From the IMG/VR virus record IMGVR_UViG_3300034093_003369, positions 1 through 23,545 of that record: a stretch of DNA of 23,545 nt. One strand, written 5' to 3'. This document shows positions 2 to 19,381 of the stretch, in pieces (positions within the stretch are counted from its first letter, which is position 1; each line of letters begins with the position of its first letter). The notes below the pieces were generated by a model. It was not told where the DNA came from. It ran no database searches and was given only the letters and a program-made list of their open reading frames with translations. The position numbers and the translations under genes were made by a program. The DNA is from a virus.

Positions 2-1072
2 GTTTCTGGTAATATCGCTACGCTGAATCGTGTTATTCTGCCGGTGATTCGACGTGTTATGCCAACTGTTATTGCCAACGAAATTGTTGGTGTACAGCCC
101 ATGACAGGTCCTGTAGGTCAGATTCACACTCTACGTGTGCGTTATGCATCTACAATGACAGACCAAACAGCAGCCGCTACTTCTGTAGTTGCTGGTGAAG
201 AAGCATTGTCACCATTCAAGATCGCTGTTGCATACTCTGCTGGCGCTCGCGGTGCTGATAACGCTGCCACTACACAAACTGCCGCCCAAGGTTACGCTGG
301 TTCGCCAACTGCTACCATGGAAGGTAACGGTGGTCGTCAGATCTCTGTACAGATCTTGAAACAAGCTGTTGAAGCCAAGACTCGCAAATTGCAAGCTCGT
401 TGGACTTTTGAAGCTGCTCAAGACGCACAAGCCATGCATGGTATCGACGTTGAAGCAGAAATTATGGCTGCTTTGGCACAAGAAATTACTGCTGAAATTG
501 ACCAAGAGATCCTATTGAGCTTGCGCTCATTGGCTCAGACTGAGTTCACATACAACCAGGCTACCGTTTCAGGTACAGCTACATTCGTTGGTGACGAGCA
601 TGCCGCATTGGCAGTTCTAGTTAACCGTGTTGCTAACTTGATCGCTCAACGCACACGTCGTGGCGCAGGTAACTGGGCTGTTGTTTCTCCAGCATCTTTG
701 ACAGTATTGCAATCTGCTACAACTAGCGCATTTGCACGTACTACAGAAGGTACATTTGAAGCTCCTACAAACACCAAGTTTGTTGGTACATTGAACGGCG
801 CTATGCGTGTGTTCGTTGACTCTTATGCATCTGACTCAACACCTGTGTTGGTTGGTTACAAAGGTTCAAGCGAAGCTGACGCAGCCGCTTTCTACTGCCC
901 ATACATTCCTTTGATGAGCAGTGGTGTTGTACTTGATCCAACTACATTTGAACCAGTCGTGTCATTTATGACTCGTTATGGTTACATTGAGTTGACAAAC
1001 ACTGCATCTTCATTCGGTAACGCCGGTGACTATGTTGGTGAGATCGCTGTATCTAACTTGTCTTTCTCTTAA
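2..1072 (+). CDS. 23: Major capsid protein gp23, 5'-truncated by window edge
   Basis: This is the C-terminal part (356 residues visible) of a T4-type major capsid protein, which forms the hexamers of the phage head. The reading frame is open from base 2 with no stop, so the true start lies upstream; the GTG at 44 is internal. Recognisable gp23 signatures are IANEIVGVQPMTGPVG near the visible N-terminus, the helix IDVEAEIMAALAQEITAEIDQEIL, RGAGNWAVVSP, the GTLNG...RVFVDSYA strand, VGYKGSSEADA and FYCPYIPL, and the late MTRYGYIEL segment. T4 gp23 is about 520 residues, so roughly the first quarter to third is missing here. TAA stop at 1070-1072 is followed within 25 bases by a strong terminator, which fits a highly expressed gene. 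The family assignment rests on remembered sequence similarity and is very secure; the organism-level placement is less so. Confidence 0.95.
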   Translation, partial: VSGNIATLNRVILPVIRRVMPTVIANEIVGVQPMTGPVGQIHTLRVRYASTMTDQTAAATSVVAGEEALSPFKIAVAYSAGARGADNAATTQTAAQGYAGSPTATMEGNGGRQISVQILKQAVEAKTRKLQARWTFEAAQDAQAMHGIDVEAEIMAALAQEITAEIDQEILLSLRSLAQTEFTYNQATVSGTATFVGDEHAALAVLVNRVANLIAQRTRRGAGNWAVVSPASLTVLQSATTSAFARTTEGTFEAPTNTKFVGTLNGAMRVFVDSYASDSTPVLVGYKGSSEADAAAFYCPYIPLMSSGVVLDPTTFEPVVSFMTRYGYIELTNTASSFGNAGDYVGEIAVSNLSFS

Positions 1073-1132: not shown

Positions 1133-1795
1133 ATGCCCAATACATTTTATACTCCACCAGGATACTCTGGTTCGGCGCAGTTAACTGCATCAACTGGACT
1201 TAACATCAATGCCCAGGGTCGTTGGCGATTTAGTCAACAAGGTTATAATGATAGAATTACTTTTGGATTAAGCCTTGGTTGGCCAGACACAGCATATAAC
1301 GGTGAATTTGATTATGGATCACCAGGTGCACAAGTTAAACCACTGAGTGGAGGACTATTAAGTTTGTCAGCAACAAACTGGACTATTCCAGTAATTGGCA
1401 ACACTTTACAAAGCTACACAGATCCAGACACATTAATAACATATCCAGCAACTCAATGTCGAATTCAAATACAGGGACAATGGCAGGTTACTCGTCAACA
1501 AAATAGCAACAGCTATAACAGCTTTGGTGTAATCTATGATGGATTAACTGAGACTGATCTGGGCAGTAGAATATCAAAGCCCAATTTGTTATCTTACAAT
1601 ACAACTTACGCAACATATACAATTCAAGGTGCAGACGTCACTGGAGGCGCAATAGATACGTTTTCGGGGCATGAATTTTTTTGTCGTGTCACTGAAGCTA
1701 CATCTAGCAAAAACAGCAACAATGAATTTCAAAGCAATACTGTAACCTCTCCAGTATTTGCTTACACTTACAGCATGAGTTGGGAAATACTTTAA
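1133..1795 (+). CDS. Unknown protein, probably virion-associated
   Basis: I do not recognise this 220-residue protein. It is rich in Ser, Thr, Asn, Gln, Tyr and Gly, has no membrane segment or signal peptide, and alternates polar and aromatic residues (RWRFSQQGY, CRIQIQGQWQV, YSMSWEIL) in the way of all-beta virion proteins. Two internal stretches, GRWRFSQQGYNDRITFGLSLGW and a later YNSFGVIYDGL, suggest a beta-sandwich, but this is inference. It follows the gene 23 terminator and has only a late-promoter-like box 4 bases ahead of its ATG and no Shine-Dalgarno site. Its 3' end overlaps the convergent glycosyltransferase gene by 4 bases (1792-1795), each gene using the same TTAA for its stop. 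Possible roles are head decoration or fibre accessory protein; no function can be assigned. Confidence 0.8.
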   Translation: MPNTFYTPPGYSGSAQLTASTGLNINAQGRWRFSQQGYNDRITFGLSLGWPDTAYNGEFDYGSPGAQVKPLSGGLLSLSATNWTIPVIGNTLQSYTDPDTLITYPATQCRIQIQGQWQVTRQQNSNSYNSFGVIYDGLTETDLGSRISKPNLLSYNTTYATYTIQGADVTGGAIDTFSGHEFFCRVTEATSSKNSNNEFQSNTVTSPVFAYTYSMSWEIL

Positions 1796-2940
1796 ATTTT
1801 GTAAAGTCGAAGATGTTGATTAAGTTTGGTTAACACTGAATCCCAGTTATCCATGCTATCTTGTCTGAACAACACTGCTGATGGATACCACCTGGTGGTG
1901 TTTTTGTCTATTAACCATCTCCAATCAACTGCATAGTTGTTCAGCATAATCCATACCGGCTTAGATAGTGCACCTGCTAGATGCGCAGTTACAGTATCAA
2001 CTGAAATTACCAAATCTAAATGATGCATTAACGCAGCCGTGTCGGCAAAGTTTTTGGTTGACCCAGGATATACTTGTACTCCGGCAGCAACTAACTTGGT
2101 GGTCTCTTCGTCAGTTGCATCAGCTTGTAAATTTATCCATTCATGTTCAGGATGCTGTTCAATTAATTTTAGTATGTATTCAAACGGCATGCCTTTGTGA
2201 CCATTCAACCAGGAGTCTCTGCGTCCACTCCACCCAAATCCCACTCGAATTTTTTTCTTTGCACCTAATATCTTTGCCCACTCGGCCACTCGGCCAGCCT
2301 CGGCTCCAAGATAACCCAGTATCTTTGGCAGGGTTTCTAATGTTATTCCCAGTCGACCAGGCAAGCTCATAATAGGAACCCAATAATCAAACTCGCCAGG
2401 ATCCTCATCATATCCTCCTACCCAACTCAACAGATTAGATTGATTCAACAATGGAATCAATGGTTCAGTGACTTGTAATTTCACTGTCGCACCGGCAGCA
2501 TGTAAATTAAAAATAAATCTTACAAATTGTACATTGTCACCGTGCCCTTGTTCGCCAACAACTAAAATAGTTTTGCCTTTGAGATCTTCACCACGCCACT
2601 GTGGCTGAGTAAATTTAGGTAAAGTTCCTGCTAAATGCTCGTAGTTCCATCGACTTTCATAGAGTTGCCAACCACGTTGCAAGTTGCCACTGAGTAAATT
2701 TGCTATAGCCAAATTAAATTGCGCTGTGACATAAGTTGGTGCTAGTTTAACAGCATATTCTAAAAAAGGAATTGCGCCTTCGGGGTCTCCAACTTCGCGC
2801 AATACATTGCCATAGTTGTTGAATGCCGCTGGATTTTTTCGATCCAGGGTAAATGCTTGTGCATAACAAGCAAGTGCTTGTTCGGGTTGGCGTAATCCGC
2901 GTAGTTCGTTGCCTTGGTCTATTAGTTCGTTTGCAGTCAT
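1792..2940 (-). CDS. TPR-repeat protein with C-terminal glycosyltransferase domain
   Basis: The 382-residue product has an N-terminal TPR array (about residues 4-98) with NNYGNVLREVGDPEGAI and FNLAIANLLSGNLQRGW as clear units. A GT-B-like domain follows: KTILVVGEQGHGDNVQFVRF (122-142), VGFGWSGRRDSW (233-244) and DLVISVDTVTAHLAGAL plus KPVWIMLNN (309-335), then DWRWLIDKNTTRWYP. These motifs are typical of bacterial TPR proteins whose C-terminus relates to the heptosyltransferase/GT9 and GT41 groups. Some such TPR proteins glycosylate a protein bound by the TPR domain, for example flagellin. The sugar donor and target here are unknown. It is alone on the minus strand between plus-strand virion genes, behind its own late-type box, and looks like cargo acquired from a bacterium. 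No frameshift or missing segment is visible. No Shine-Dalgarno is apparent, but no other in-frame ATG would keep the TPR array. Confidence 0.88.
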   Translation of the reverse strand: MTANELIDQGNELRGLRQPEQALACYAQAFTLDRKNPAAFNNYGNVLREVGDPEGAIPFLEYAVKLAPTYVTAQFNLAIANLLSGNLQRGWQLYESRWNYEHLAGTLPKFTQPQWRGEDLKGKTILVVGEQGHGDNVQFVRFIFNLHAAGATVKLQVTEPLIPLLNQSNLLSWVGGYDEDPGEFDYWVPIMSLPGRLGITLETLPKILGYLGAEAGRVAEWAKILGAKKKIRVGFGWSGRRDSWLNGHKGMPFEYILKLIEQHPEHEWINLQADATDEETTKLVAAGVQVYPGSTKNFADTAALMHHLDLVISVDTVTAHLAGALSKPVWIMLNNYAVDWRWLIDKNTTRWYPSAVLFRQDSMDNWDSVLTKLNQHLRLYKI

Positions 2941-2945
2941 GCTAA

Positions 2946-2953
2946 TATTTACA
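2946..2953 (-). promoter_or_regulatory. Late promoter box for TPR-glycosyltransferase gene
   Basis: On the minus strand the sequence reads TGTAAATA, then TTAGC, then ATG (2940-2938). With T4 geometry (box at about -13 to -6) transcription would start exactly at the A of the ATG, giving a leaderless message. The box differs from TATAAATA at its first two positions. Confidence 0.5.
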
Positions 2954-2985
2954 GACTTTACTGTGCGGCAAAATATTTGTTTGAC

Positions 2986-2993
2986 AATAAATA
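2986..2993 (+). promoter_or_regulatory. Late promoter box for the 227-residue virion-type gene
   Basis: AATAAATA preceded by TTGAC and followed by CATG matches the T4-type late box. It is 93 bases upstream of the ATG at 3087 and would give a leader of about 90 bases that ends in a strong AAGGAG ribosome site (3073-3078). It is back to back with the minus-strand box at 2946-2953, so this 146-base gap is a divergent late promoter region. Confidence 0.6.
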
Positions 2994-3086
2994 CATGTCA
3001 ACGCAATTCTGTGTTTTATGCTGATGATTAAACCCAACAGCGTAGCGGCTAGAACCCGCATCGGACTTCTTTAAGGAGAAAACAAA

Positions 3087-3770
3087 ATGGGTCGTCCTCT
3101 AAAAATTAAAAAAACAACAACCAAAGATATTGGTTTCAACAGCTTTGATCAGCTAGAAAACCCAGTGTATCCGGCAACTCTTAATACCACACAGTTTTTA
3201 GGTGTAGTTGGCGGAGCAAATGCAATCGGTGGCAGTAGTGTAGCTACCAGTACCAACCCCGTGGTACGTGTGCAAGTTTATATTGCCGAAGATTCAGAAG
3301 AACGAGCTGGATTTATTATCACACAAAAAGGAGCCACCAAATATTTGGTAGCTGCCAATGTGGCAGTAGCCGACGAAGATTTAGTTGTGGGCAATAGTTA
3401 TATTATTGCAACCGTGGGCTCAACCAACTGGACTCAATGCGGTGCATCAAAATCCACACCTGGTGCCGGTGATATATTTACAGCCACTGCTGCTGGATCA
3501 GGCACCGGGACTGCATTCCTGGTTGGAGTATGCACATTGGCCAACGAGGCCACAGCATCATTAACTTCAGGTAACATGAACATTGCAATGTTTAATGGTG
3601 ACAGCACTGACATTTTAATCAGCAAGCTCACCAACAAGTATGCGCAAGACTATTCAACTCCACCTGTGCGATATCTAACCAACTTCTTCACAGATGAGGG
3701 AACAGAAATCAAATCTGGCACCACTGGCACAACAGTACCGTTGGCTATTGTAGAAAACTACACAAGCTAA
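3087..3770 (+). CDS. MGRPL-type structural protein of T4-like phages, with an inserted module
   Basis: The 227-residue product starts MGRPLKIKK and carries NPVYPATLNTTQFLGVVGGAN (25-45), GFIITQKGATKYLV (75-88), and ISKLTNKYAQDYSTPPVRYLTNFF (178-201). From memory this layout is a recurrent small conserved protein in marine T4-like phages, generally annotated as hypothetical or virion-associated. Residues about 96-144 (DEDLVVGNSYIIATVGSTNW to GSGTGTA) look like a self-contained beta module that many phage fibre proteins carry; here it separates KYLVAA from GVCTLANEA, which would otherwise be adjacent. The start is supported by AAGGAG 8 bases upstream and by the conserved MGRPL. A terminator overlapping the next gene's ribosome site follows. 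The precise role in the particle is unknown. Confidence 0.85.
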   Translation: MGRPLKIKKTTTKDIGFNSFDQLENPVYPATLNTTQFLGVVGGANAIGGSSVATSTNPVVRVQVYIAEDSEERAGFIITQKGATKYLVAANVAVADEDLVVGNSYIIATVGSTNWTQCGASKSTPGAGDIFTATAAGSGTGTAFLVGVCTLANEATASLTSGNMNIAMFNGDSTDILISKLTNKYAQDYSTPPVRYLTNFFTDEGTEIKSGTTGTTVPLAIVENYTS

Positions 3771-3790
3771 TCAAAATTACACTAGCCTGC

Positions 3791-3822
3791 AACCTTCCTG
3801 GTACATACTAGGGAGGTTTTTT
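3791..3822 (+). terminator. Terminator hairpin whose 3' arm holds the next gene's ribosome site
   Basis: AACCTTCCT (3791-3799) pairs with AGGGAGGTT (3810-3818), nine pairs with one G-T wobble, around a 10-base loop. Six T residues (3817-3822) follow and abut the ATG at 3823. The 3' arm contains GGGAGG (3811-3816), which is the only Shine-Dalgarno site for that gene. The element therefore can end transcription or, in read-through RNA, hide the ribosome site. Confidence 0.82.
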
Positions 3823-4407
3823 ATGACAGCATTTGTGTTAGGCAACGGAGTAAGTAGAAACTCAATATCAATAGATCAACTGTTGAAATTGGGTCCTGTC
3901 TATGGGTGCAACGGATTATATCGTAATCACACAGTCACAGCCTTGGTGGCAACAGATAAACCAATTGCTCAGGCAATTCAACAGTCGGGTTACAGCACCA
4001 ACAACAGATTTTATACTCGACGTCCATTGCCAGGGTTGGGTGCACAGGTAGTTCCAAAAAAGTATTTTGGGTTTAGTTCTGGCCCCATTGCTACTGCAAT
4101 TGCCGCAGAAGATCGCCAGCCTGTGATTTATTTGTTGGGATTTGACATGGGCCCAGACACGGATGGCAAATTTAACAATCTCTACGCTGATACTGAGTTT
4201 TACAAAACAACTGGAGCACACCCAACCTACACTGGTAACTGGATAAAACAACTGGTACAAGTGGTGCAAGACTTCCCAAAGCAACAATTTATTCGGGTCA
4301 AGGGCGAAACCACAGCAGATATACAAGAGCTTAATAATTTGCCAAACTTGAAACATTTGCCGCTTGCAACCTTCCTACAACGAATAAATACTGGAAAGGA
4401 TTTATAA
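3823..4407 (+). CDS. Small Rossmann-like protein, weakly DUF115/Maf-like
   Basis: The 194-residue protein is unlike its neighbours: it is a soluble alpha/beta sequence and not a fibre. It opens with FVLGNGVSR (4-12), a glycine-rich strand-loop, followed by VYGCNGLYR (26-34), LVATDKPIAQAI (41-52), SSGPIATAIA (85-94) and VIYLLGFDMG (101-110). This succession resembles the DUF115/Maf and sialyltransferase-like fold, where an early G-N-G-x-S loop, a conserved Asn and a late G-x-D motif line the nucleotide-sugar site. That match is by eye and weak, so the enzyme call is tentative. The start at 3823 has GGGAGG 6 bases upstream, embedded in the preceding terminator hairpin. The gene's last bases hold the late-type box for the next fibre gene. 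It may be a nucleotide-sugar enzyme; alternatives are an uncharacterised Rossmann protein. Confidence 0.8.
   Translation: MTAFVLGNGVSRNSISIDQLLKLGPVYGCNGLYRNHTVTALVATDKPIAQAIQQSGYSTNNRFYTRRPLPGLGAQVVPKKYFGFSSGPIATAIAAEDRQPVIYLLGFDMGPDTDGKFNNLYADTEFYKTTGAHPTYTGNWIKQLVQVVQDFPKQQFIRVKGETTADIQELNNLPNLKHLPLATFLQRINTGKDL
4383..4390 (+). promoter_or_regulatory. Late promoter box inside the end of the preceding gene
   Basis: AATAAATA followed by CTGG matches the T4-type late box. It lies in the last codons of the upstream gene and 17 bases before the ATG at 4408, with GGAAAGGA between them as ribosome site. This spacing equals that of the other boxes that precede fibre genes (17-21 bases). Confidence 0.6.
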
Positions 4408-5061
4408 ATGTCTACCACCAAGAGAATCACCGGCGATTACAATATCATTAGCTTAAACCCCTCTGACGGCGACAATGTTAATATCACCACGCATACTGTA
4501 AACGTTACTGGAAACTTATCAGTTCAAGGAAATCTTACCTACATTGATGTAACCAAGCTTGAGGTAGGGGATCCGTTTATCACAGTTGCTGCCAACAACA
4601 CTGGTACAATAGGTACCGCAACGTACCAACAACAGGGTTTGGTAACTCAAACATCTAATTCTACCTATGCTGGATTGAGATTTAATAATTCTACATTAGA
4701 ATGGGAAATCTCTCCAGCAGTTGACAGTAACGGGGCACCACTTACAGCGTATCAAGCTATTGGTACCTCAGTTGCTGGATCAGTTGCTGGCCCCAACGCC
4801 AGCATTCAATTTCATGATTCAGGTAATGTGTTTGGTGGCAATGCATCGCTGACATATGATTTGGCCAATAGTCAATTAAGAATTCGTGGATCTCAACTGT
4901 TTGGTAATATTGGAACAACCCCGGCAGCTTTAGCAAATTCAGTGACAGTCTACAGTAAGGCACAGGGCTCGGGCGGCACTGGGTTGTATGTTATAAGCCC
5001 CACAGTCGATGACGAGCTGGTCAGCAAAAGCGCCGCCATAGTTTTTTCAATAATATTTTAA
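4408..5061 (+). CDS. Fibre-type structural protein (217 residues)
   Basis: The N-terminal half contains the common phage fibre module VTGNLSVQGNLTYIDVTKLE followed by VGDPFITVAANNTG (about 33-65), the same module seen in the 1325- and 2004-residue fibres. AGLRFNNSTLEWEISP (about 91-106) is a typical strand pair. The C-terminal part, with GNIGTTPAALANSVTVYSKA and a final DELVSKSAAIVFSIIF, resembles the C-terminus of short virion proteins in marine T4-like phages. There is no signal peptide or membrane segment; the hydrophobic end is probably a buried strand or trimer contact. Start chosen from GGAAAGGA upstream. Likely a short tail-fibre or baseplate-associated protein; which one cannot be said. 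Confidence 0.82.
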   Translation: MSTTKRITGDYNIISLNPSDGDNVNITTHTVNVTGNLSVQGNLTYIDVTKLEVGDPFITVAANNTGTIGTATYQQQGLVTQTSNSTYAGLRFNNSTLEWEISPAVDSNGAPLTAYQAIGTSVAGSVAGPNASIQFHDSGNVFGGNASLTYDLANSQLRIRGSQLFGNIGTTPAALANSVTVYSKAQGSGGTGLYVISPTVDDELVSKSAAIVFSIIF

Positions 5062-5070
5062 GGAATCAAG

Positions 5071-5385
5071 ATGACAATTGCAACATCTAATGTCTCAACA
5101 ACTACTAGTCCAATATACACAAGTTCAGGGAACACCGCTATAACTTGGCTAAGTCTTGCTAACTACGGAGTTAGTAATGTCACTGCCAATGTGCACGTAG
5201 TGCCCAGTGGGGAAACAGCCAACAGTGTTAATACAATATTGGCAAGTATTCAAATTAATACACTTGACACCTATCAATTGTATTCTGGCGCAGAAAAATT
5301 GTTACTTGGCAATGGCGACACAGTTCAGGTCAACGCCAGTGCTAATTCTGCAATTGGTGCAGTTACTAGTTACACAACAATCTAA
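5071..5385 (+). CDS. Small beta-rich virion-type protein (104 residues)
   Basis: The product is a compact all-beta domain: ITWLSLANYGVSNVTANVHVVPSG, then NTILASIQIN and EKLLLGNGDTVQVNASANSAIGAVTSYTTI. The LGNGD-x-V-x-V-x-A pattern with a final x-SYTxI strand is common in small phage head or fibre accessory proteins with an immunoglobulin-like fold; this is a family resemblance and no name is secure. AAGGA lies 8 bases before the ATG. The stop overlaps the start of the next gene by one base (TAATG), so the two are probably translationally coupled and made in similar amounts. Confidence 0.75.
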   Translation: MTIATSNVSTTTSPIYTSSGNTAITWLSLANYGVSNVTANVHVVPSGETANSVNTILASIQINTLDTYQLYSGAEKLLLGNGDTVQVNASANSAIGAVTSYTTI

Positions 5386-5783
5386 TGGGCTACTACGTTA
5401 AAAACCGACAATTACAGTCGGGATCATCGGGAGTTGTGTTACCAGCTGGTAGTTCAGCAGTGCGACCATTAGCACCTAGTTTTGGTCTTATTCGTTACAA
5501 CACTGATTTAGCAAATATTGAATTTTTTAATGGTACGGAGTATTTACCCTTGGCGTCATCTGGTGCTCTCAGTTATACAATTGATAGCTTTACCGGTGAC
5601 GGCAGTACTGTACAATTTACAATGTCTATACAAGAAAGCTCAGCAGCTCAAATTATGGTTTTTGTGGGATCAATTTATCAAGATTCTACTTCAGCTTACA
5701 CTGTTAACGGTGGCTACGATATTACATTTACATCAGCCCCACCAAGCGGTGAGCCAATCTCAGTAATACACAGCTCTACCTAG
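5385..5783 (+). CDS. Short fibre protein with RYNT..IEFFNG and GDGS modules
   Basis: This 132-residue protein consists almost entirely of two exchangeable modules. Residues about 30-56 (RPLAPSFGLIRYNTDLANIEFFNGTEYLPL) match the fibre motif that in the 420- and 1325-residue proteins reads IRFNTGSTDVEVWDGTQW and VRFNTSVNNLEFYDANSW. Residues about 68-130 (FTGDGSTVQFTMS, IMVFVGSIYQ, YTVNGGYDITFTSAPPSGEPISVIH) match the GDG..T.FTL module of those same proteins. The start ATG shares its A with the preceding TAA. A late promoter box begins two bases after the TAG stop. It could be a separately made tip or adaptor unit. Confidence 0.8.
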   Translation: MGYYVKNRQLQSGSSGVVLPAGSSAVRPLAPSFGLIRYNTDLANIEFFNGTEYLPLASSGALSYTIDSFTGDGSTVQFTMSIQESSAAQIMVFVGSIYQDSTSAYTVNGGYDITFTSAPPSGEPISVIHSST

Positions 5784-5784
5784 T

Positions 5785-5792
5785 CATAAATA
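5785..5792 (+). promoter_or_regulatory. Late promoter box before the 700-residue fibre gene
   Basis: CATAAATA followed by TCC matches the T4-type late box. The ATG at 5811 is 18 bases downstream, with AAAGG as ribosome site (5800-5804). Confidence 0.68.
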
Positions 5793-5810
5793 TCCAAGCA
5801 AAGGTATTAG

Positions 5811-7913
5811 ATGGCTATTAATCGTATTTCCGGTAATATTTTACAGGACAATTTAGTTCGTGGCGCCAACCTGGCCATTCAAGGCAACTTATTTTTTGTA
5901 GACGTTGTCAACACTCGCCTTGGCGTAAACACTAGTTCAACCACAGCCACATTGACCGTTGCTGGCAATGCTGCCATTTCTACAACTCTTAACGTAAGCG
6001 GAAACGCCACTGTTGGTAATTTGCAAACGTCTGGGTTATTGACTGCAACTGGTGGATTAATTGCAACTGGTAATGTCACTGGTAATGGCGTGACCCTGTC
6101 AGCCAATGCCATCTCGGCAGCATCTGGTGTACTTAACTTAGGATCCAGTGCAAACATTAAAATTACTGGCGGATCTGCAGATTATGTGCTTGCCACTGAT
6201 GGATCTGGAAATGTATCCTGGATCGCTGGCAATGCCATTGTTGGAGTATTAGGCAATGTCATTTCTATGGGAACCAACTCTCTTGGCAATCTTGTTAGTA
6301 ATGCAGTTACATTGACTACATCAACAACTGTAACTGATGGTATTACACAACTAAACACAGTACTTGGTAAACTAGTTCCGGCTAGTCCAACAAATTTTCC
6401 TGGTAGTCCAGGAACTCTAGCAATTGCTAGTGTTAGTTCATATCGCATGACTAACATTACTCAAACAGATAACACACCCGGTGCCAATAAAAACGTAGCT
6501 GCTGGAACCACAGTGTCAACTGTGCGCAGAGCCACAACATACACAACTAACACTTTTACTAACCTTGGTCCAGGTGACACTGGCACAATTACAGCGGTGC
6601 GTAACGGTGCCAACGTAGGTACAGTAACTTTGAACACTGGCGCTAGCCCAAGTGGCAACGGTACTTACGGCGGCAATCTTGTGATTACCAACAACTACGA
6701 TTATAACGTAGCCAATGCAAACATAGCCGCAGGATTTTGGTATGTGTTTACTTCTACTATTTCTGGAACTGCATCGCCTACCGGTTGGAATGAAATTTAT
6801 ATTGCTGACAGTGCTACATCAAATACATCAACTGCTGTGTGGTACTACGACAATTCAAGTCCAAGCACACCAAGTTTTAGTTCAACAACAATGGCAGTAG
6901 GCGGGTCTACTACACTGCTATACTCAAGCACGATCCCGCACTATACAAATGCCACCCAGTTTAACATTGGGACCACTGTAGCCAATGCGTCTGGTAACAT
7001 GTATCCAACCTCAAATACATTGGCATCAGGCACAGCCGCTGGTGCGTTTGCCGCACCAGCCAGCGTGAACTACAACGCAAGTAACGTGGGTAGCAACACC
7101 CTCAATTCATTTCAGTCAGCAAGTTTTACAACCACAGCCAACGTGACCACAGGGTTTGGCGCCAGCTCTACAGGGCCACAACTCAGCGTAAACAACAGTT
7201 ATTCAACAGGAACACTGACTCTAACTACAGCATTGGCTAACACAGTATTATGGAAATCAGGAACAGCCACTGCCATTGATGAAGGCAACATTGTTATAAC
7301 ATCCGTGGGCACAGGATCTGGAAATGCAGTGCGTATCATTAATCCAGGAACAGGTAATAATCCAGGATACACAGCCAATGCCACGTCATTCAACAGTCAA
7401 AGTTCAACACTACAAACTTATGATGCCACTGTGGTTGGATCAAGTAGTCAAGGCGTGTTAAAACACGATCAAACAAATTATTCAACTGGCTATTTGCCAG
7501 CTGGCCCAGATTTAAGTGCAGGACGATCGGGCACACAGTATTTTACATTTAAGTTTGTGCGAACAGACGTGAGTAAATTTGATATTACCTATGCAGGCAA
7601 CGTGGCCGGAATGTGGGTGGCACTACCTGGAAGTGTGATTGACGCTAGTTCAGGCGCCAATGGCTGGATCGATATGTCCGCGGCCTATGGCGGCGCAGGA
7701 TACCCGGGTGTTAACAGCCCAGGCAATGGGTCAGATGGTTGCAGCCTTGGTGGAGTAGTAACGCTCAACGTAAACACAGCGTCTGTTAGCAAAACATGTA
7801 CCTTTGGCACAGTGTCAAGCTCAAGCACCGCCACCAACGAAATTTACGTTAGAATTGCTCTAACGTCAGGCCAAACAGTGACTGGCCTATCACTCAAGGC
7901 AGCGAGTAACTAA
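5811..7913 (+). CDS. Tail-fibre-like protein (700 residues)
   Basis: The N-terminus MAINRISGNILQDNLVRGANLAIQ then LFFVDVVNTRLGVNTSSTTATLTVAGN (about 1-55) is the standard start of many marine T4-like fibre proteins. Next come fibre repeats (NATVGNLQTSGLLTATGGL, TGNVTGNGVTLS) and ADYVLATDGSGNVSWIAGN (about 124-142). The middle, from VTDGITQLNTVLGKLVP, is a large Thr/Ser/Asn-rich beta region without repeats. The last ~120 residues (KFDITYAGNVAGMWVALPG, GWIDMSAAYGGAGYPGVNSPGNGSDGCSLGG, then EIYVRIALTSGQTVTGLSL) resemble a C-terminal domain recurrent in these phages, a plausible receptor-binding or trimerisation head. The stop overlaps the next start (TAATG). No frameshift is visible. Fibre identity is secure; its position on the virion is not. 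Confidence 0.86.
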   Translation: MAINRISGNILQDNLVRGANLAIQGNLFFVDVVNTRLGVNTSSTTATLTVAGNAAISTTLNVSGNATVGNLQTSGLLTATGGLIATGNVTGNGVTLSANAISAASGVLNLGSSANIKITGGSADYVLATDGSGNVSWIAGNAIVGVLGNVISMGTNSLGNLVSNAVTLTTSTTVTDGITQLNTVLGKLVPASPTNFPGSPGTLAIASVSSYRMTNITQTDNTPGANKNVAAGTTVSTVRRATTYTTNTFTNLGPGDTGTITAVRNGANVGTVTLNTGASPSGNGTYGGNLVITNNYDYNVANANIAAGFWYVFTSTISGTASPTGWNEIYIADSATSNTSTAVWYYDNSSPSTPSFSSTTMAVGGSTTLLYSSTIPHYTNATQFNIGTTVANASGNMYPTSNTLASGTAAGAFAAPASVNYNASNVGSNTLNSFQSASFTTTANVTTGFGASSTGPQLSVNNSYSTGTLTLTTALANTVLWKSGTATAIDEGNIVITSVGTGSGNAVRIINPGTGNNPGYTANATSFNSQSSTLQTYDATVVGSSSQGVLKHDQTNYSTGYLPAGPDLSAGRSGTQYFTFKFVRTDVSKFDITYAGNVAGMWVALPGSVIDASSGANGWIDMSAAYGGAGYPGVNSPGNGSDGCSLGGVVTLNVNTASVSKTCTFGTVSSSSTATNEIYVRIALTSGQTVTGLSLKAASN

Positions 7914-9175
7914 TGGCCATATCAATAGCACAATATGTTGACTTGCTGTTTAAAAAGCTACAAGGGGTAGCTAAAACAGCCAACAGCACAGTCAAAGGTG
8001 CCAGCAATGAAAGTATTGCTAGTCCAGCGTTTTTACGTGGAGACATTGTATGGGTGGAATCAAACCAAATTGGAAACACTGCTCAGGCAATTGCAGGAAT
8101 TTCCACTGCCTACAGAAACGGCAGCGCAGTAGAATGTGTAGCAGATACCACAGTGCCTCCGATTGGCGGCATCCGTCCCACTTGGTTAACTAACGAAACA
8201 TATTGGATACCACAAGAATTTGGCGCCACCTGGCTGCCAAAAGTCTTTGTTGGGCCAAGTGCTGCCGCCAACATTGAAGCCACTGGTACACAGATATTTT
8301 CTGCTGGTATTGGTGGAGTTGGTGAATATTACTTTGACACACAAGCTGGAGTATTGAACTTTATCGGGGAAACCATACCCACAGTACTTACAGCAGGCAA
8401 TGTTGTTTATGTAGCGGGTTATCAATATTCAGGATTGCTTGGGACCACAACCCTGCCAGGCAATACCACAATTGGTAACTTGGTAATAGCAAATACAACA
8501 ATAACTACCAATCAAGTAACTGGTAACATTAATTTAGAACCAACTGGTAACGGAGTTGCCATTATCGATACTACAACAGGATTGGTGTTGCCAACAGGAA
8601 ATACAACCCAACGTCCAGCAAGCCCAGATCAGGGCACAATACGATTTAATACCGGGTCAACAGACGTGGAAGTTTGGGATGGCACTCAGTGGACAGGAAT
8701 TGGCGGAGCATCTGCCGCCATCACCAATCAGTACATCACCGGGGACGGAAGTAACACCGTTTTTACACTTGACCAGGATACTAGTGCCGCAGCCATTATT
8801 GTCAGCACCAACGGTGTGGTACAGTTCCCAGATGTGGCATACACAGTCACTGGCAACCTGATCACATTTGCTGAAGCACCAACCGCAACCGATGTCATTG
8901 ATGTTAGATTTACTGCAATGCTGAACACAGTCAATGCTATCACCAATGCAACTGGACAAGAGCTGACAATTACTGTGCCCGGGGTGGTAAATATCACAAA
9001 TACACACAGCCTACAGTTGCCAACATACACAGTGAGTCAGGCCACTTCATTGGGCAATACTGCAACAGGGCAGGTTATATATGTATCCAATGGTGACAGC
9101 GGTAATCCTTGCCTGGCTGTTTATTCGGGCAGCACCTGGAAAAGAGTGGTTTTAGGTGCCACTATCAGCACATAA
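7913..9175 (+). CDS. Conserved virion/fibre protein (420 residues)
   Basis: The first ~175 residues (MAISIAQYVDLLFKKLQGVAKT, VKGASNESIASPAFLRGDIVW, YWIPQEFGATWLPKVFV, TGTQIFSAGIGGVGEYYFDT, AGVLNFIGETIP) match, from memory, an N-terminal domain conserved in marine T4-like phages next to fibre genes. It is followed by GNTTIGNLVIANTTI (about 181-196), the RFNTGSTDVEVWDGTQWTG module (about 243-261), the GDGSNTVFTLDQDTSAAAIIVSTNGVVQF module (273-330), and a C-terminal TATGQVIYVSNGDSGNPCLAVYSGSTWKRV segment. Translation is probably coupled to the upstream fibre through TAATG. The N-terminal domain may be the particle anchor and the rest the exposed part; this is inference. Confidence 0.84.
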   Translation: MAISIAQYVDLLFKKLQGVAKTANSTVKGASNESIASPAFLRGDIVWVESNQIGNTAQAIAGISTAYRNGSAVECVADTTVPPIGGIRPTWLTNETYWIPQEFGATWLPKVFVGPSAAANIEATGTQIFSAGIGGVGEYYFDTQAGVLNFIGETIPTVLTAGNVVYVAGYQYSGLLGTTTLPGNTTIGNLVIANTTITTNQVTGNINLEPTGNGVAIIDTTTGLVLPTGNTTQRPASPDQGTIRFNTGSTDVEVWDGTQWTGIGGASAAITNQYITGDGSNTVFTLDQDTSAAAIIVSTNGVVQFPDVAYTVTGNLITFAEAPTATDVIDVRFTAMLNTVNAITNATGQELTITVPGVVNITNTHSLQLPTYTVSQATSLGNTATGQVIYVSNGDSGNPCLAVYSGSTWKRVVLGATIST

Positions 9176-9223
9176 TTATTTCTTTTAATTTACAATCCCA
9201 GCAGTGGAGTTTTTGCCAGACAC

Positions 9224-9231
9224 CATAAATA
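9224..9231 (+). promoter_or_regulatory. Late promoter box before the 1325-residue fibre gene
   Basis: CATAAATA followed by GGTGG lies in the 77-base gap after the previous gene, 21 bases before the ATG at 9253. GGAG at 9241-9244 serves as ribosome site. No clear terminator precedes it. Confidence 0.7.
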
Positions 9232-9252
9232 GGTGGATATGGAGAACTCATC

Positions 9253-12200
9253 ATGGCCGTGACTAGAATTAAAAATAATCAGATTACCGACGCAACCATC
9301 AATGCGGCGGCAAAGGTAACCAGCTACAGTATTACATCGGGCCTGCTGGCCAATAGTCTTACATATGGATCAGACTTAACAATTACTGGAAACTTAACAG
9401 TTAACGGTAGTTCCACAACAATCGACACAGTTGACTTGATTGTTGAAGATCCCATAATTATCCTGGCGGCAAACCAAACTGGTGCACCGTCAGTAGACAT
9501 TGGTTTTATTGGAAAACGTGGCACAAGCACCAACGTGGCGTTTGTTTGGGACGAAAGTGTTGGCGCATTTTTAACCGCCTTTACCAACACAGCGGCAACA
9601 AATACAGCCATCACAATTAGTTCGTATGCTGACTTTCAGGCAGCAAACATCACATCCAACACCAACTTGGCAGTGACAGGCACAACCAGTCTTACTGGAA
9701 ATATCACTGTTGGCAACTTGTTTGTGGGCACTAGTAAAACAATTAATGTTGGTAACAACGTCATCACCAATGTTGCAACCCCAGTTGGCAACAGCGATGC
9801 AGCCACAAAAGAATATGTTGATGGCATTGCCAGCTCAGGATTCACAATTGAAGATGATACCGCAAATACCACTGTGGTTAGTAGCGGCGACACACTAGAA
9901 TTAAGAGGCACCGCAAACGAAGTTGGTGTGTACATTACCGGCGTAGATCAAATTACTTTTGGCTTACCTGACGATGTCACAGTTACAGCAACACTCACAG
10001 CCGGTAATTTGAGCACAGGTGGTACTGCAAATGTAACCGGCAACATCACTGGTGGTAACTTGAGCACAGCCGGGCAAGTGAGTGCCACAGGCAATGTCAC
10101 AGCTGGCAACTTGATCACTGGTGGATTGATTAGTGCAACTGGTGCAATCACAGGTGGCAGCACAATATCGGCAGCTGGTAATGTTACTGCCGGTAACGTA
10201 CTGACAGGCGGATTAGTCAGCGCGACTGGCAATGTTAACGGTGGTAATTTAATCAGTGCGGCGTTGGTACAAGGCGTTACTGTCAGTGCAAGCGGCAACA
10301 TCACTGGTGGTAATTTAATATCTTCAGTTGTTACTAACTCAACTGCAATGACCATCAGCACCGCGTCTGGCAATCTTAACCTCCAACCCACTGGTAACAT
10401 TGTATTAAACAGCAAGTATATTAATGGTGTAAACCAGCCAGTGCAAGACAACGATGCGGCTTCTAAGATCTATGTGGACAACATGGTATCAACTCAGTTG
10501 GCGTATCACGAAGCTGTTTTGGCAGCCACAACAGGCACATTGGCCGCAGCCACAGGTGGTACTATTACGTACAACAACGGAACTGCTGGTGTGGGTGCTA
10601 CACTGACAGTAGCAGGCGGTACGTTCAACTTGATTGATACTGCCAACGTTCAAACTGCAGGCACACGTATTCTGGTCAAGAACCAAGCTGACGCCACACA
10701 AAACGGTGTGTATGAATACACCAGCTCAACTGTTATCACTAGAACAACAGACGCTGACACATATGGTCCTAACAGTGCAACTGACTTGAGCATTAACGAC
10801 TATTTCTTTGTGCAAAGCGGAGATGTCAATAAAGGTTCTGCATATATTGTTGATGCACCGTCAGGCGTTATTACTTTTGGTACTAGTAACATTGAGTTTG
10901 CTCAATTCTCAAGCTCACAGACCTACACAGCCAACACCAGTGCTGGTCTAGTATTAAACAGCACTGTATTCAGTGCCAAGGTAGACAACAATACCACAGC
11001 ATTTGACGGTGGTGGCAACATCAGCATCAAAGTTGGTGCAAACTTGACAACACCAAACATTGGTGCGGCAACTGGTACAAGTCTAAGTGTCACAGGCAAC
11101 GTAGATGGTGGTAACTTAAATACCGGTGCTCAAGTAGTGGCAACTGGTAATATCACTGGTGGTAACTTGATCACTGCTGGTTTGGCTACTGTAACTGGTA
11201 ATGTTAATACCAGTGCAGGTGTACTGGCAACTGGCAACGTAACAGGTGGTAATGTCAACACAGCTGGATTGATTACTGCAACTGGCAACATCACTGGTGG
11301 CAATTTGATCACAGGTGGATTGATTACTGCTACTGGCACTATTACTTCTACTGCCAATATTGCAGGTGGCAACTTAACTACTGGTGCTCAGGTATCGGCA
11401 GGTGGCAACATCACTGGTGGTAACTTAATTACTGTTGGACTAACCACAGTAACTGGTAACATCACTGGTGGCAATTTGATCACAGGTGGATTGATTACTG
11501 CTACTGGCAACGTAGATGGTGGTAATGTCAACGCAGCCGGTAACGTCACTGGTGGCAACATTACCACAGCTGGACAAGCCAATCTAGGCAACATTCGTAT
11601 CAGTGGCGACACTATTACTGGTACAAATGGTCGTGTAAACATTAATTCGGCAGCAGCTGACGTTGACTTTTCAGTCAGTGGCACAGCAGCCAATGTGTTC
11701 TACATAGATGCCGGGACAAATAGTGCTAGTTTTGGTAATGCCACTCAGATAACTAACGCAATTGCATCGTTCCAGACCACAACTTCTATTAAAGTTCCAG
11801 TGGGCACCACTGGACAACGTCCAGGCGCTGGTGTTACTGGTATGGTACGTTTCAACACCAGCGTCAACAACTTGGAATTCTACGATGCCAACAGCTGGCA
11901 AACTGCAGGTAGCCAGTTCACTGTTATCACAGCTAATACGCAATCTGGTGACGGAGTGCAGACAGCATTTACTTTGCCGGCAGCAAGTACCACAGCTGGC
12001 ACCATTGTTGCTATCAACGGTGTGGTACAGATTCCGGTAACTGCGTACTCGGTGGCCAATACCACATGTACATTTACTGAAGCACCAGTCAGCACCGACG
12101 TCATTGATTTCCGTGTGTTGGCAACAACATCAACTGTGACTGGCTTGTCTAGTTCCAGCGGTGCAATTGTAGAATTGAATCCAACTCTAATAGATGTTGA

Positions 12201-13230
12201 TCTTACTGGTAATATAATTCCAACTTCAAATGTTGCATACAATTTAGGTAATACAACAAATAGATTTAATGACTTGTATTTGTCAGGGTCAAGCTTGTAT
12301 CTAGGCAATGTTATTATGAAGACTGCAACTGGTAACACAATTGCATTCTTCCAACCAGATGGAACAACACCAGCTACTATTGCGGCATCCAGTGTAGACA
12401 CTACACAGATTGCCAGCGGCACATCGGGTGTAGCTGTTGTTTCGTCAGGTGGCAACATTCGTGCCAACGTTGCTGGCACAACTGTACAAACTATCAGTGC
12501 AGGATTGGTGGCAATTACAGGCGACTTGAGTGTGACCGGCAATGCAACACTGAGTGGTAACATCCTAGGCGACAGAGTACAAAACGGTACAACCAGTTTT
12601 GACATTCAAACACCGAACGGAAATGCCAACATCACAGTGGGCGGTACTAGCAATGTGGCTGTATTTGCTACAACTGGTGCTTTTGTAACTGGTGTACTAA
12701 GTGCAAGTGGCAACGTAACTGGTGGCAACTTGAGTGTTAGCACAGGAACCATCACTGGTGGCAACATTGTCAATGCCAACGGCAACGGCATTGGTAACAT
12801 TGGTAGTTCCAGTGTTTACTTCAACACTGTGTTTGCCAAAGCAACAAGTGCACAATACGCTGACTTGGCAGAGAAATATGTTGCTGACGCAGAGTACGCA
12901 CCAGGAACAGTGTTGGCATTTGGTGGTGACCAGGAAGTTACGCTAGCAACAGACGCTGGGTCAACTCGTGTGGCAGGTGTTGTTAGTACAAACCCAAGTT
13001 ACATCATGAACGCTGGGCTAACTGGCGAACATGTGGCAATGGTGGCACTACAAGGTCGTGTACCATGTCGAGTAGTTGGCGCAGTTGCCAAAGGTGACTT
13101 GATGGTGGCTGCCGGTAACGGTGCTGCCAAAGCTGATAACACGGCACGTGCAGGTACTATCATTGGCAAGGCCCTGGAAAACTTTGATGGTGCAGAAGGC
13201 ACAATTGAAGTTGTAATTGGTCGAAACTAA
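9253..13230 (+). CDS. Large modular tail fibre with C-terminal AEKY-type domain (1325 residues)
   Basis: Modules in order: anchor-like MAVTRIKNNQITDATI; TGNLTVNGSSTTIDTVDLIVEDPIIILAANQTG (45-77); DAATKEYVD (182-190); GNITGGN-type repeats (about 250-385); DAASKIYVDN (about 399-408); a collar-like module with AGTRILVKNQADATQNGVYEYTS (about 420-556); a second repeat block (about 610-790); FNTSVNNLEFYDANSW and GDGVQTAFTLPAAS (about 866-966); NVAYNLGNTTNRFNDLYLSGSSLYLGNV (about 990-1017); and a C-terminal domain from FNTVFAKATSAQYADLAEKY to IEVVIGRN (about 1185-1325). That last domain recurs in phage fibres and may relate to the G2 intramolecular-chaperone group, though I cannot see catalytic residues well enough to claim cleavage. 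Its paralogue ends the gene at 19382. A double hairpin follows the stop. Confidence 0.88.
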   Translation: MAVTRIKNNQITDATINAAAKVTSYSITSGLLANSLTYGSDLTITGNLTVNGSSTTIDTVDLIVEDPIIILAANQTGAPSVDIGFIGKRGTSTNVAFVWDESVGAFLTAFTNTAATNTAITISSYADFQAANITSNTNLAVTGTTSLTGNITVGNLFVGTSKTINVGNNVITNVATPVGNSDAATKEYVDGIASSGFTIEDDTANTTVVSSGDTLELRGTANEVGVYITGVDQITFGLPDDVTVTATLTAGNLSTGGTANVTGNITGGNLSTAGQVSATGNVTAGNLITGGLISATGAITGGSTISAAGNVTAGNVLTGGLVSATGNVNGGNLISAALVQGVTVSASGNITGGNLISSVVTNSTAMTISTASGNLNLQPTGNIVLNSKYINGVNQPVQDNDAASKIYVDNMVSTQLAYHEAVLAATTGTLAAATGGTITYNNGTAGVGATLTVAGGTFNLIDTANVQTAGTRILVKNQADATQNGVYEYTSSTVITRTTDADTYGPNSATDLSINDYFFVQSGDVNKGSAYIVDAPSGVITFGTSNIEFAQFSSSQTYTANTSAGLVLNSTVFSAKVDNNTTAFDGGGNISIKVGANLTTPNIGAATGTSLSVTGNVDGGNLNTGAQVVATGNITGGNLITAGLATVTGNVNTSAGVLATGNVTGGNVNTAGLITATGNITGGNLITGGLITATGTITSTANIAGGNLTTGAQVSAGGNITGGNLITVGLTTVTGNITGGNLITGGLITATGNVDGGNVNAAGNVTGGNITTAGQANLGNIRISGDTITGTNGRVNINSAAADVDFSVSGTAANVFYIDAGTNSASFGNATQITNAIASFQTTTSIKVPVGTTGQRPGAGVTGMVRFNTSVNNLEFYDANSWQTAGSQFTVITANTQSGDGVQTAFTLPAASTTAGTIVAINGVVQIPVTAYSVANTTCTFTEAPVSTDVIDFRVLATTSTVTGLSSSSGAIVELNPTLIDVDLTGNIIPTSNVAYNLGNTTNRFNDLYLSGSSLYLGNVIMKTATGNTIAFFQPDGTTPATIAASSVDTTQIASGTSGVAVVSSGGNIRANVAGTTVQTISAGLVAITGDLSVTGNATLSGNILGDRVQNGTTSFDIQTPNGNANITVGGTSNVAVFATTGAFVTGVLSASGNVTGGNLSVSTGTITGGNIVNANGNGIGNIGSSSVYFNTVFAKATSAQYADLAEKYVADAEYAPGTVLAFGGDQEVTLATDAGSTRVAGVVSTNPSYIMNAGLTGEHVAMVALQGRVPCRVVGAVAKGDLMVAAGNGAAKADNTARAGTIIGKALENFDGAEGTIEVVIGRN
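10000..11620 (+). repeat. Two GNITGGN-type repeat blocks within the 1325-residue fibre
   Basis: Degenerate repeats of about 36 bases encode variants of TGN-[I/V]-T-GGN-L-[I/S/N]-T-x-G. One block spans about 10000-10400 and the second about 11080-11620, separated by the collar-like module. The periodic Gly-Asn turns suggest a beta-helical or triple-beta shaft. The DNA copies differ mostly at third codon positions. Confidence 0.75.
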
Positions 13231-13233
13231 ACA

Positions 13234-13262
13234 ATTTGATAAGGGCTTGTCCCTTATCAAAT
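13234..13262 (+). other. Strong hairpin without T tract after fibre gene
   Basis: ATTTGATAAGGG (13234-13245) pairs perfectly over 12 bp with CCCTTATCAAAT (13251-13262) around a CTTGT loop. It begins three bases after the stop codon and has no T run behind it. It stands 6 bases ahead of a proper terminator, so it may protect or process the 3' end of the transcript. Confidence 0.8.
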
Positions 13263-13268
13263 AATTAC

Positions 13269-13296
13269 AAACAGGACTCTTAGTAGTCCTGTTTTT
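13269..13296 (+). terminator. Rho-independent terminator after the 1325-residue fibre gene
   Basis: AAACAGGACT (13269-13278) pairs over 10 bp with AGTCCTGTTT (13285-13294), loop CTTAGT, and the 3' arm runs into TTTTT (13292-13296). The late box for the next gene starts 4 bases later. Confidence 0.9.
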
Positions 13297-13299
13297 CTG

Positions 13300-13307
13300 A
13301 CTAAATA
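13300..13307 (+). promoter_or_regulatory. Late promoter box before the 2004-residue fibre gene
   Basis: ACTAAATA matches the last six bases of the T4-type late box. The ATG at 13328 is 20 bases downstream with AAGG as ribosome site. The same variant ACTAAATA occurs at 19353, with nearly the same spacing. Confidence 0.6.
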
Positions 13308-13327
13308 TACAATAAGGCAAAAATACC

Positions 13328-16300
13328 ATGGGTTTAACTAGGATATCGGCACAACAAATTTCAAACATTGATTACAAGCAATCAGTGCGTGTGGTCACTG
13401 TGAGCAATATTACGTTAAGTGGCGGCGCCCCGGCCACAGTTGACGGAGTTAGTCTTGTTGCTGGCGACAGAATATTGGTTACTGGGCAGTCAACCAGCAG
13501 TCAAAATGGGTTATATTCCGTCACAGTTTTGGGTGTGGGTAGTAACGGCACCTGGGCTAGAACCGGCGACGGCAATGAAACTGGAGAAATTGACAGCGGC
13601 ATGATTGTCATGGTCACTGAAGGCACAACCTATGCTGATACTCAATGGAAACTCACAACAAATGATCCTATAACAATTGGTACAACTGGGTTGACGTTTA
13701 CGCAGAATTATTCTGCCAACTCTATTTCCTCGGGCACCAGCAATGTAGTTGTGTCTAGTAATGCCAATGTGTCAGTTGCTGTGGCCGGCAGCAATGTTGC
13801 GGTATTTGCATCAACTGGGGAATATGTCACGGGCATACTAAGTGCAACCGGCAACATCACAGGTGGTAATTTAATCACCGCAGGACTAACCACAGTAACT
13901 GGTAACGTTAATACAAGTGCAGGTGTATTGGCCACAGGTAACTTAACTGGTGGCAACGTCAACACTGCTGGATTAATTTCAGCAGCTGGTAACATCACCG
14001 GTGGCAATTTAATATCTGCCGCATTGGTACAAGGCGCCACATTAAGTGCAACAGGTAACATCACCGGTGGTAACTTAAACACTGGCGGTTTAGTTTCAGT
14101 TACAGGCAACATCACTGGTGGTAATTTACTAACCAGTGGCAACATTGTTGATACAAATGCATTGTCAATTATCACAGGTTCAAGTGGTAATATCAGTTTG
14201 GCTCCTAATGGCACCAATGTATTAGTTGCTACTACCACAGGTGCCAACATCACTGGCACACTCAATGCCACTGGCAACGCCAACGTGGGCAACTTGGGTG
14301 CCGCAACTGTGACGGCTACTACACTAACAGGCACATTATCAACTGCGGCACAAACAAACATAACTTCAGTGGGCACTCTGGGTAGTTTGGCTGTTACAGG
14401 TAACATCACTTCAGGTAACCTAAGTGGCACAAATATTGTGGGCACATTGACCACAGCGGCACAAACCAATATCACAAGTGTGGGCACTTTGGGATCATTG
14501 GCAGTAACTGGCAACATCACTTCAGGTAACTTGAGTGCTACAAACCACACAGGAACCACTGTAAGTGTCACAGGTAATATCACAGGTGGTAACCTAAGTG
14601 GCACAAATATTGTGGGCACATTGACCACTGCCGCTCAAACTAATATCACAAGTGTGGGTACTTTGAGTGCATTATCAGTGACTGGTAACATCACTGGCGG
14701 CAATTTAAGCACAGCTGGTAACGTAACTGGCAGCTATATTTTAGGTAACGGTGCATTTTTATCTGGTGTTATTACCAGTGTAGCAAATATCAACAACGGT
14801 ACCAGCAATGTTACTGTAGTAAGCTCAGGTGGCAACGTCACTGTTGGAGTTGGTGGAACATCAAACGTGGCAGTATTTGCCACAACAGGTGAATATGTAA
14901 CTGGTGTTGTAAGTGCTAGTGGTAACGTAACTGGCGGCAACATTACCACTGGTGGATTGGTAACTGCTACAGGTAATGTTAATACAAGTGCAGGTGTGTT
15001 GGCTACAGGCAACATCACAGGTGGTAACTTACTAACGGGTGGCTTAGTCTCAGCTACGGGTAATATCACTGGTGGCAATCTATCAGGTACCAGTATTGTG
15101 GGTACGTTGACCACAGCCGCACAAACCAATATCACAAGTGTGGGCACTTTGGGTAGTTTGGCAGTCACAGGTAATATCACAGGTGGTAATTTAAACACAG
15201 GTGCTCAAGTAGTGGCAACTGGCAACGTCACAGGTGGCAATTTAGTAACTGCTGGACTAATTTCAGCAACTGGTAACGTAAGTGGTGGAAATTTAAATGT
15301 CACAGGTAATATTGTTGACACTGGAGCATTGACAATCATCACTGGTGCAAGTGGCAATGTTAATCTAGCACCCAATGGCACAAACGTCGTAGTTGTGACC
15401 ACAACTGGTGCTAATATTACAGGTACTCTCAATGCCACTGGTAATGCCAATGTGGGCAATCTAGGTGCCGCAACAGTGGTGGCAACTACGCTAACTGGTA
15501 CATTATCAACTGCCGCACAAACAAATATTACTAGCGTGGGTACACTGGGTAGTTTGGCAGTTACTGGCAACATCACAGGTGCTAATATAATTGCCACACT
15601 CAATGGAAGTGGCGCCAATGTTACTAGCATCAGTGCCACAAACATCAGTTCAGGCACACTGGCACAAGCAAGATTGGCAAACTCAGCAGTGACACTAGGC
15701 TCAACAGCACTCACACTTGGTGCAACGGTGACCACAGTGGCTGGCTTGACCAGTGTGACATCAACTACATTCGTTGGTGCATTAACTGGGGCAGCCACCA
15801 CAGCAGCCACAGTGACCACTGCGGCACAACCTAATATTACGTCAGTTGGTACATTGACAAGTGTTTCTTCTTCAGGCAATGTCACAGGTGGTAATTTAAT
15901 CACAACTGGACTTGCTAGTGTTGGCACAACACTAGACGTAACCGGCAACGCCAACGTGGGTAACCTAGGAACGGCAGGTCAGATCACAGCCACAGGTAAC
16001 ATTACTGGTGGTAATTTATTAATTAATACTAATGCTGTTATCACAGGTAACTTGACAGTTCAAGGTAATACCACAACTATTAATTCTAATACAATTACCA
16101 CCAACGATTTGAACATCACTGTTGGTAACAATCAAAATACAGGTACGGCACTAAACAATGCCGGTATTGATGTTGGTAACAATAACCTTGCCACCTGGAG
16201 ATTCAATAACGCAACCACGTCATGGCAGAGCAACATTGCTGTGATGCCAACAGCCAATGGTACATTGGCACTGGGAGGCACAAGCAATTATTGGGGTGCA

Positions 16301-19342: not shown

Positions 19343-19352
19343 CTGGATCTAA

Positions 19353-19360
19353 ACTAAATA
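19353..19360 (+). promoter_or_regulatory. Late promoter box before the 283-residue fibre gene
   Basis: ACTAAATA followed by CTTTAAC lies 21 bases before the ATG at 19382, with AAGGA as ribosome site. It is the same box variant as at 13300. No terminator is visible between it and the previous gene. Confidence 0.58.
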
Positions 19361-19381
19361 CTTTAACAAGGAAAAAACAAA

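Follow-up and report, generated by a model that had tools for sequence, protein, structure and literature searches.

The stretch of DNA analysed here (the window) comprises 23,545 nucleotides, positions 1 to 23,545 of IMG/VR record IMGVR_UViG_3300034093_003369. It is a contig of an uncultured virus, a T4-like phage, and runs from the major capsid protein gene gp23 on the left to a gp15 homologue on the right. Between gp23 and a long fibre region lie a gene for a tetratricopeptide repeat (TPR) protein with a glycosyltransferase (GT) domain, hereafter TPR-GT, and a gene for a protein of 194 amino acids (aa). It is proposed, with about an even chance of being correct, that the two proteins form a late protein-glycosylation module modifying a virion protein, whether a fibre, the product of the intervening gene orf3087 or a protein on the capsid side. 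A sequence-only reading of the window had suggested a glycosylation pair between gene 23 and the fibres. Both open reading frames (ORFs) proved to be real and full-length and the placement was correct, but orf3087, located between them, had gone unnamed. The features on which the argument depends are as follows.

1792-2940, minus strand: TPR-GT, a TPR plus GT9-like glycosyltransferase (GT-B fold) of 382 aa
3087-3770, plus strand: orf3087, a 227-aa protein with no assigned function, between both GT-like genes
3823-4407, plus strand: stand-alone 194-aa protein of the DUF115/Maf_flag10-GT42 superfamily, candidate glycosyltransferase
2946-2952, minus strand: GTAAATA, T4-type late promoter core, 5 nt before the TPR-GT start codon
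2987-2993, plus strand: ATAAATA, late promoter core, about 95 nt before orf3087
3791-3818, plus strand: terminator-shaped hairpin with a TACATA loop followed by a U-run, holding the Shine-Dalgarno sequence of the 194-aa gene

Two transferase-like proteins

The TPRs of TPR-GT occupy approximately residues 3-99 and the GT domain residues 118-382. In Pfam, matches were obtained to TPR_16 (1.5e-10) and to Glyco_transf_9 PF01075 (3.1e-5, 23.9 bits against a curated cut-off of 22), the latter also being matched at E<=0.001 by 11 of 15 homologues; the GT41 profile PF13844 was absent from the Pfam matches up to E 1. A Foldseek search with the AlphaFold (AF2) model (predicted local distance difference test score 87.5, predicted template modelling score 0.85) recovered the GT9 heptosyltransferases 1psw (8.7e-9) and 3tov (5.8e-8), together with the TPR-carrying OGT and SPINDLY enzymes. 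These matches are partial, with a TM-score to the query of at most 0.51, as expected since the protein has two domains. The GT fold anticipated for the TPR protein was thus recovered by structure prediction and fold search, as a GT-B fold of GT9/GT41 type. All 15 homologues keep G134-D135 of the EQGxGD motif, and D135 aligns, by eye and without gaps, with D13 in the SSMGD stretch of E. coli WaaC. The motif on the donor side, SVDTxxAHLAGALxxP, is likewise retained, and together these motifs suggest a catalytic frame that is intact.

TPR-GT9 proteins with this domain layout are common in bacteria (Comamonadaceae, Chlorobiaceae, Xanthobacteraceae and others), with 32-39% identity and mostly equal length, and their genes lie among those of TPR proteins, GT41 enzymes and FkbM methyltransferases. 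The phage proteins form a group of their own. In a tree from a quick search, in which many branches are weak, the TPR-GTs of this phage clade constitute one group (SH-aLRT, an approximate likelihood ratio test, 93) on a long branch, and there is therefore no sign of recent capture and no recent host donor is visible.

In the 194-aa family, GNGxSR, GCN, D45, SSGP, GFD, NN, GNW and R158 are invariant across 34 sequences, and the motifs FVLGNGVSR and LLGFDMG both lie inside the ORF at 3823-4407 (plus strand). Single-sequence searches were weak, but two profiles came up repeatedly among the homologues: PF01973 matched 11 of 34 at E<=1 (best 0.0037), and CST-I PF06002 matched 8 of 34 (best E 0.0015). 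A profile search of the PDB with the family ranked Cst sialyltransferases first (E 0.0018-0.077, two collinear motifs). Comparison by hhalign with 20 bacterial DUF115 domains gave a probability of 92.5 and an E-value of 5e-7 over 114 columns, against a probability of 1.5 for the GT9 control, and in a viral structure library DUF115- and MptE-annotated proteins matched the 194-aa model at approximately 1e-5. The Maf_flag10 domain has been reported to resemble Cst-II (PMC11339370), and the DUF115 and Cst links of the 194-aa protein therefore point to one superfamily. Judged from its sequence, the protein is related to DUF115/Maf_flag10, a relationship that is real at the superfamily level, and is weakly related to the GT42/Cst sialyltransferases. 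The DUF115/Maf link, earlier called weak, has thereby been strengthened. A CST-I search in 12 bacterial genomes gave no match anywhere, but as the controls were also silent this result carries no information. Further, more distant copies of the 194-aa family were observed in two large phage genomes (G004:C1:24093-24365, G004:C1:114639-115124 and G005:C1:176600-176881). Three places match the family in Pelagibacter phage HTVC008M, where curli transport genes (CsgF, CsgG and CsgB as annotated; L062:7562-9557) lie a few kb from a family gene.

Conserved order, late promoters and a hairpin

Both proteins are found at full length in more than 100 loci, with identities of 36-96%; their full length and conservation imply that the gene pair is not a chance association. 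The recurrent order is gp23, TPR-GT on the opposite strand, orf3087, the 194-aa gene and then the fibres. The 194-aa gene lies directly behind orf3087 in all 103 distinct TPR-GT genes for which the region is visible, so that the linkage of the two genes claimed previously is a fixed one. Here, orf3087 belongs to the same unit as the pair. The contigs of relatives extend up to 352 kb, and some of these phages are therefore jumbo phages.

The motif NTAAATA matches the T4 late promoter core (TATAAATA). It is present in 102 of 102 distinct upstream regions of TPR-GT, where 7.5 would be expected, and in 95 of 97 cases it is located 4-5 nt from the start codon. A similarly short distance is observed in 18 of 19 cases for orf1133, a gene beside gp23. 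This spacing predicts near-leaderless late mRNAs for both genes. Upstream of orf3087 the motif occurs in 84 of 89 distinct regions, nearly all at -100 to -90, and ATAAATA at 2987-2993 is presumed to be the promoter of a transcript covering orf3087, the DUF115-type gene and the fibres. The late timing that the sequence-only reading gave to both genes is supported by the cores of TPR-GT, orf1133 and orf3087; the 194-aa gene has no late motif of its own (8 of 134 upstream regions, 9.3 expected) and is presumably carried on the orf3087 transcript.

The 194-aa gene is instead preceded by a hairpin in which the Shine-Dalgarno sequence lies in the 3' arm and the U-run ends at the AUG. A stem of at least 7 pairs is formed in 128 of 128 distinct upstream regions as against 43 of 128 after shuffling, and the loop reads TANNTA in 117 of 121. 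The arms covary, the native stem averaging 9.8 bp compared with 5.67 (standard deviation 0.71) when arms were swapped (200 swaps, 17 non-redundant sequences). This swap is the fair test of covariation, a count of paired positions being biased because the best stem had been picked first. RNAalifold returned no pairs because MAFFT had aligned the arms out of register, and the arm-swap control was used in its place. No such conserved hairpin was seen before other genes in 2.0 Mb of related loci. Helices masking the Shine-Dalgarno sequence are known for T4 e, soc, 49 and I-TevI (PMC3014915). The hairpin would probably hold expression of the enzyme low compared with that of orf3087. The idea that a late promoter is hidden in the loop, as in T4 soc and e, was rejected: the loop is TACATA in 78 of 117 cases and TAAATA in only 6 of 117, whereas the late sites here read TAAATA.

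Neighbouring genes and sugar supply

The remaining features of the region are as follows.

2-1072, plus strand: 3' part of the major capsid protein gene gp23 (PF07068, 9.4e-99), truncated by the window start
1133-1795, plus strand: orf1133, protein without assigned function beside gp23 in part of the clade; late core at 1122-1128, 4 nt before the start
4408-5061, 5071-5385 and 5385-5783, plus strand: three small fibre-operon ORFs, together in many relatives; one matches tail-fibre PHROGs
5811-20233, plus strand: repeat-rich fibre-type ORFs of 700, 420, 1325, 2004 and 283 aa, candidate acceptors

Profile searches with orf1133 gave no Pfam or PHROG match. The product of orf3087 is presumed to be a virion protein and a candidate acceptor; its sole PHROG match is weak (phrog_18079, 7e-4). 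A search of the phage collection with a diverged orf3087 homologue brought up no relative, and no pattern linking orf3087 length to the presence of TPR-GT was apparent by eye. In relatives L152, L026, L123 and L182, the interval from gp23 to TPR-GT or orf1133 is a hypervariable site of insertion, 0-3 kb long, whose ORFs are unrelated; by eye, some of them resemble homing endonucleases or small fibre proteins.

The fibre-type ORFs together span 4408-20233, approximately 16 kb of repeat-rich sequence. Two fibre C-termini (19382-20233 and the end of 9253-13230) share a YADLAEKY-type domain, both matching phrog_22593, and one fibre C-terminus gave a weak Peptidase_G2 match (0.012). Between the fibres and gp15, a NUDIX hydrolase gene (20191-20706, minus strand; PF00293, 1.7e-17) overlaps both neighbouring ORFs.

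Regarding the supply of sugars, 12 of 13 large relatives have genes for epimerases or dehydratases that act on nucleotide sugars, GalE and GMD-like ones among them, and some are adjoined by DegT-type aminotransferase genes.

Acceptor and competing explanations

The closest architectural parallel is FlmG of Caulobacter crescentus, a TPR plus GT-B enzyme that O-glycosylates flagellins (PMC7591256). As in the phage protein, N-terminal TPRs are followed by a C-terminal GT-B domain, and FlmG acts on a repetitive filament protein, as the repeat-rich phage fibres are candidate acceptors. FlmG is, however, larger, at 596 aa, and its TPRs take up about 313 aa against about 100 aa in the phage enzyme. 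The Pfam match of TPR-GT is to GT9 instead of GT41, and flagellin plays no part here. For the 194-aa protein the relevant comparison is with the Maf flagellin glycosyltransferases, whose Maf_flag10 domain (PF01973) is related to it (PMC11339370); it is a single domain, in contrast to the three-domain architecture of Maf, and lacks the N- and C-terminal Maf domains. It shares the collinear GNGxS, CNxxY, SG and GxD motifs with the GT42 enzymes Cst-I and Cst-II, from which it differs in being 65-100 aa shorter, in having no invariant histidine and in that no CTP_transf_3 gene was found in the phage genomes. In mycobacteriophages, capsids and tail tubes are glycosylated and phage-encoded transferases modify virion proteins; this is another phage group, and we know of no TPR/Maf pair there. 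TPR-GT enzymes and virion glycosylation in phages are thus already known, and no earlier description of a TPR-GT paired with a DUF115-type protein in T4-like phages was found in the literature.

Modification of a virion protein is the best single reading because of the late timing, the fixed place among structural genes, the FlmG-like architecture and the Maf-type partner. We infer that the pair is catalytic, draws on a sugar donor and takes a virion protein as acceptor. TPR-GT would be transcribed from its own late promoter on the opposite strand and act as a soluble, cytoplasmic GT-B transferase, its short TPR region probably docking a phage structural protein to which sugar would be added from a nucleotide donor. 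The 194-aa protein would be a minimal Maf/GT42-type transferase domain, also cytoplasmic, co-transcribed with orf3087 and the fibres and throttled by the hairpin, and, ahead of assembly, may add to that structural protein or to a different virion protein. A more specific version, in which a TPR-GT9 enzyme and a minimal Maf/GT42 domain limited by the hairpin jointly glycosylate a late structural protein as a long-established dedicated module, is tentatively offered and falls short of an even chance.

Several results weigh against virion glycosylation by the pair. Of 73 distinct 194-aa loci with enough upstream sequence, 50 have TPR-GT and 23 lack it. The earlier interpretation as a glycosylation pair is supported in part, namely in its GT-B fold, DUF115 domain, late context and linkage. 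It is also favoured by the co-occurrence with repeat fibres that the sequence-only reading had expected, a repeat-fibre ORF following in 47 of 53 loci with TPR-GT versus 7 of 14 without, although these counts are uncorrected for shared ancestry. On the capsid side, gp23, orf1133 and orf3087 are as close to the pair as the fibres are, so that a fibre is one candidate acceptor among several. PF01973 scores of the 194-aa family (10.7-16.3 bits) lie below the curated cut-off of 34.6, and a Foldseek search of the PDB with the 194-aa model gave no match at E<=0.001, only weak Rossmann-like ones. Cst-type GT42 enzymes use a catalytic histidine; no invariant or near-invariant histidine occurs in the 34 family sequences, and a Cst-like mechanism is therefore not supported. 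Neither a CMP-sialate-type (CTP_transf_3) nor an RmlA-type (NTP_transferase) gene was found in the 13 large relatives, all of which may be incomplete.

If a virion protein is the target, it may lie on the capsid side (gp23, orf1133 or orf3087) and not among the fibres, a variant that we consider possible but doubtful. These three are the nearest structural neighbours, orf3087 sits between the two GT-like genes, and in the unrelated phage ctDrO704 a TPR-GT relative occurs three genes after the capsid gene, together with an FkbM methyltransferase. The fibres nevertheless follow in most TPR-GT loci, and TPR-GT relatives in the unrelated phages BUCT-ZZ01 and S-SRM01, at 26-27% identity like that of ctDrO704, are located near tail fibres. 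It is rather unlikely that TPR-GT is the sole transferase, the 194-aa protein being another DUF115-type nucleotide-binding enzyme (for example MptE-like) or an accessory factor of the fibre operon. TPR-GT is never seen without the 194-aa gene, whose product carries N- and C-terminal motifs collinear with the Cst enzymes, which argues against such a division, whereas the 194-aa gene is the more widespread and occurs also without TPR-GT, the next gene of the fibre operon begins right at its stop codon, its family has no conserved histidine and PF01973 also covers pterin diphosphokinases.

A target outside the particle has also to be considered. GT9 enzymes of known function are, as far as we know, largely lipopolysaccharide (LPS) heptosyltransferases, and the same genomes carry GalE, GMD-like and aminotransferase genes. 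The transferases could then alter LPS or capsule sugars of the host and block superinfection, as proposed for sugar clusters of jumbo cyanophages (PMC7824862). Such a role appears improbable given that the genes lie in a late structural block with late promoters before TPR-GT and orf3087, that the TPR module suggests a protein acceptor, and that the layout is near-invariant over a large clade, in contrast to surface-sugar clusters, described as sporadic and polymorphic in a review (PMC7824862). Glycosylation of DNA bases is the least probable explanation by far. TPR-GT belongs to GT9 and not to a T4 glucosyltransferase family, and has a late promoter and a TPR domain, although T4 does possess GT-B enzymes with that function.

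Should virion glycosylation by the pair be confirmed, an architecture known to date from the modification of flagellins would serve a widespread group of uncultured phages to glycosylate their own particles, with a bearing on host recognition and particle stability. A small DUF115-type family, at present without annotation in many uncultured phages, would also gain a first function.

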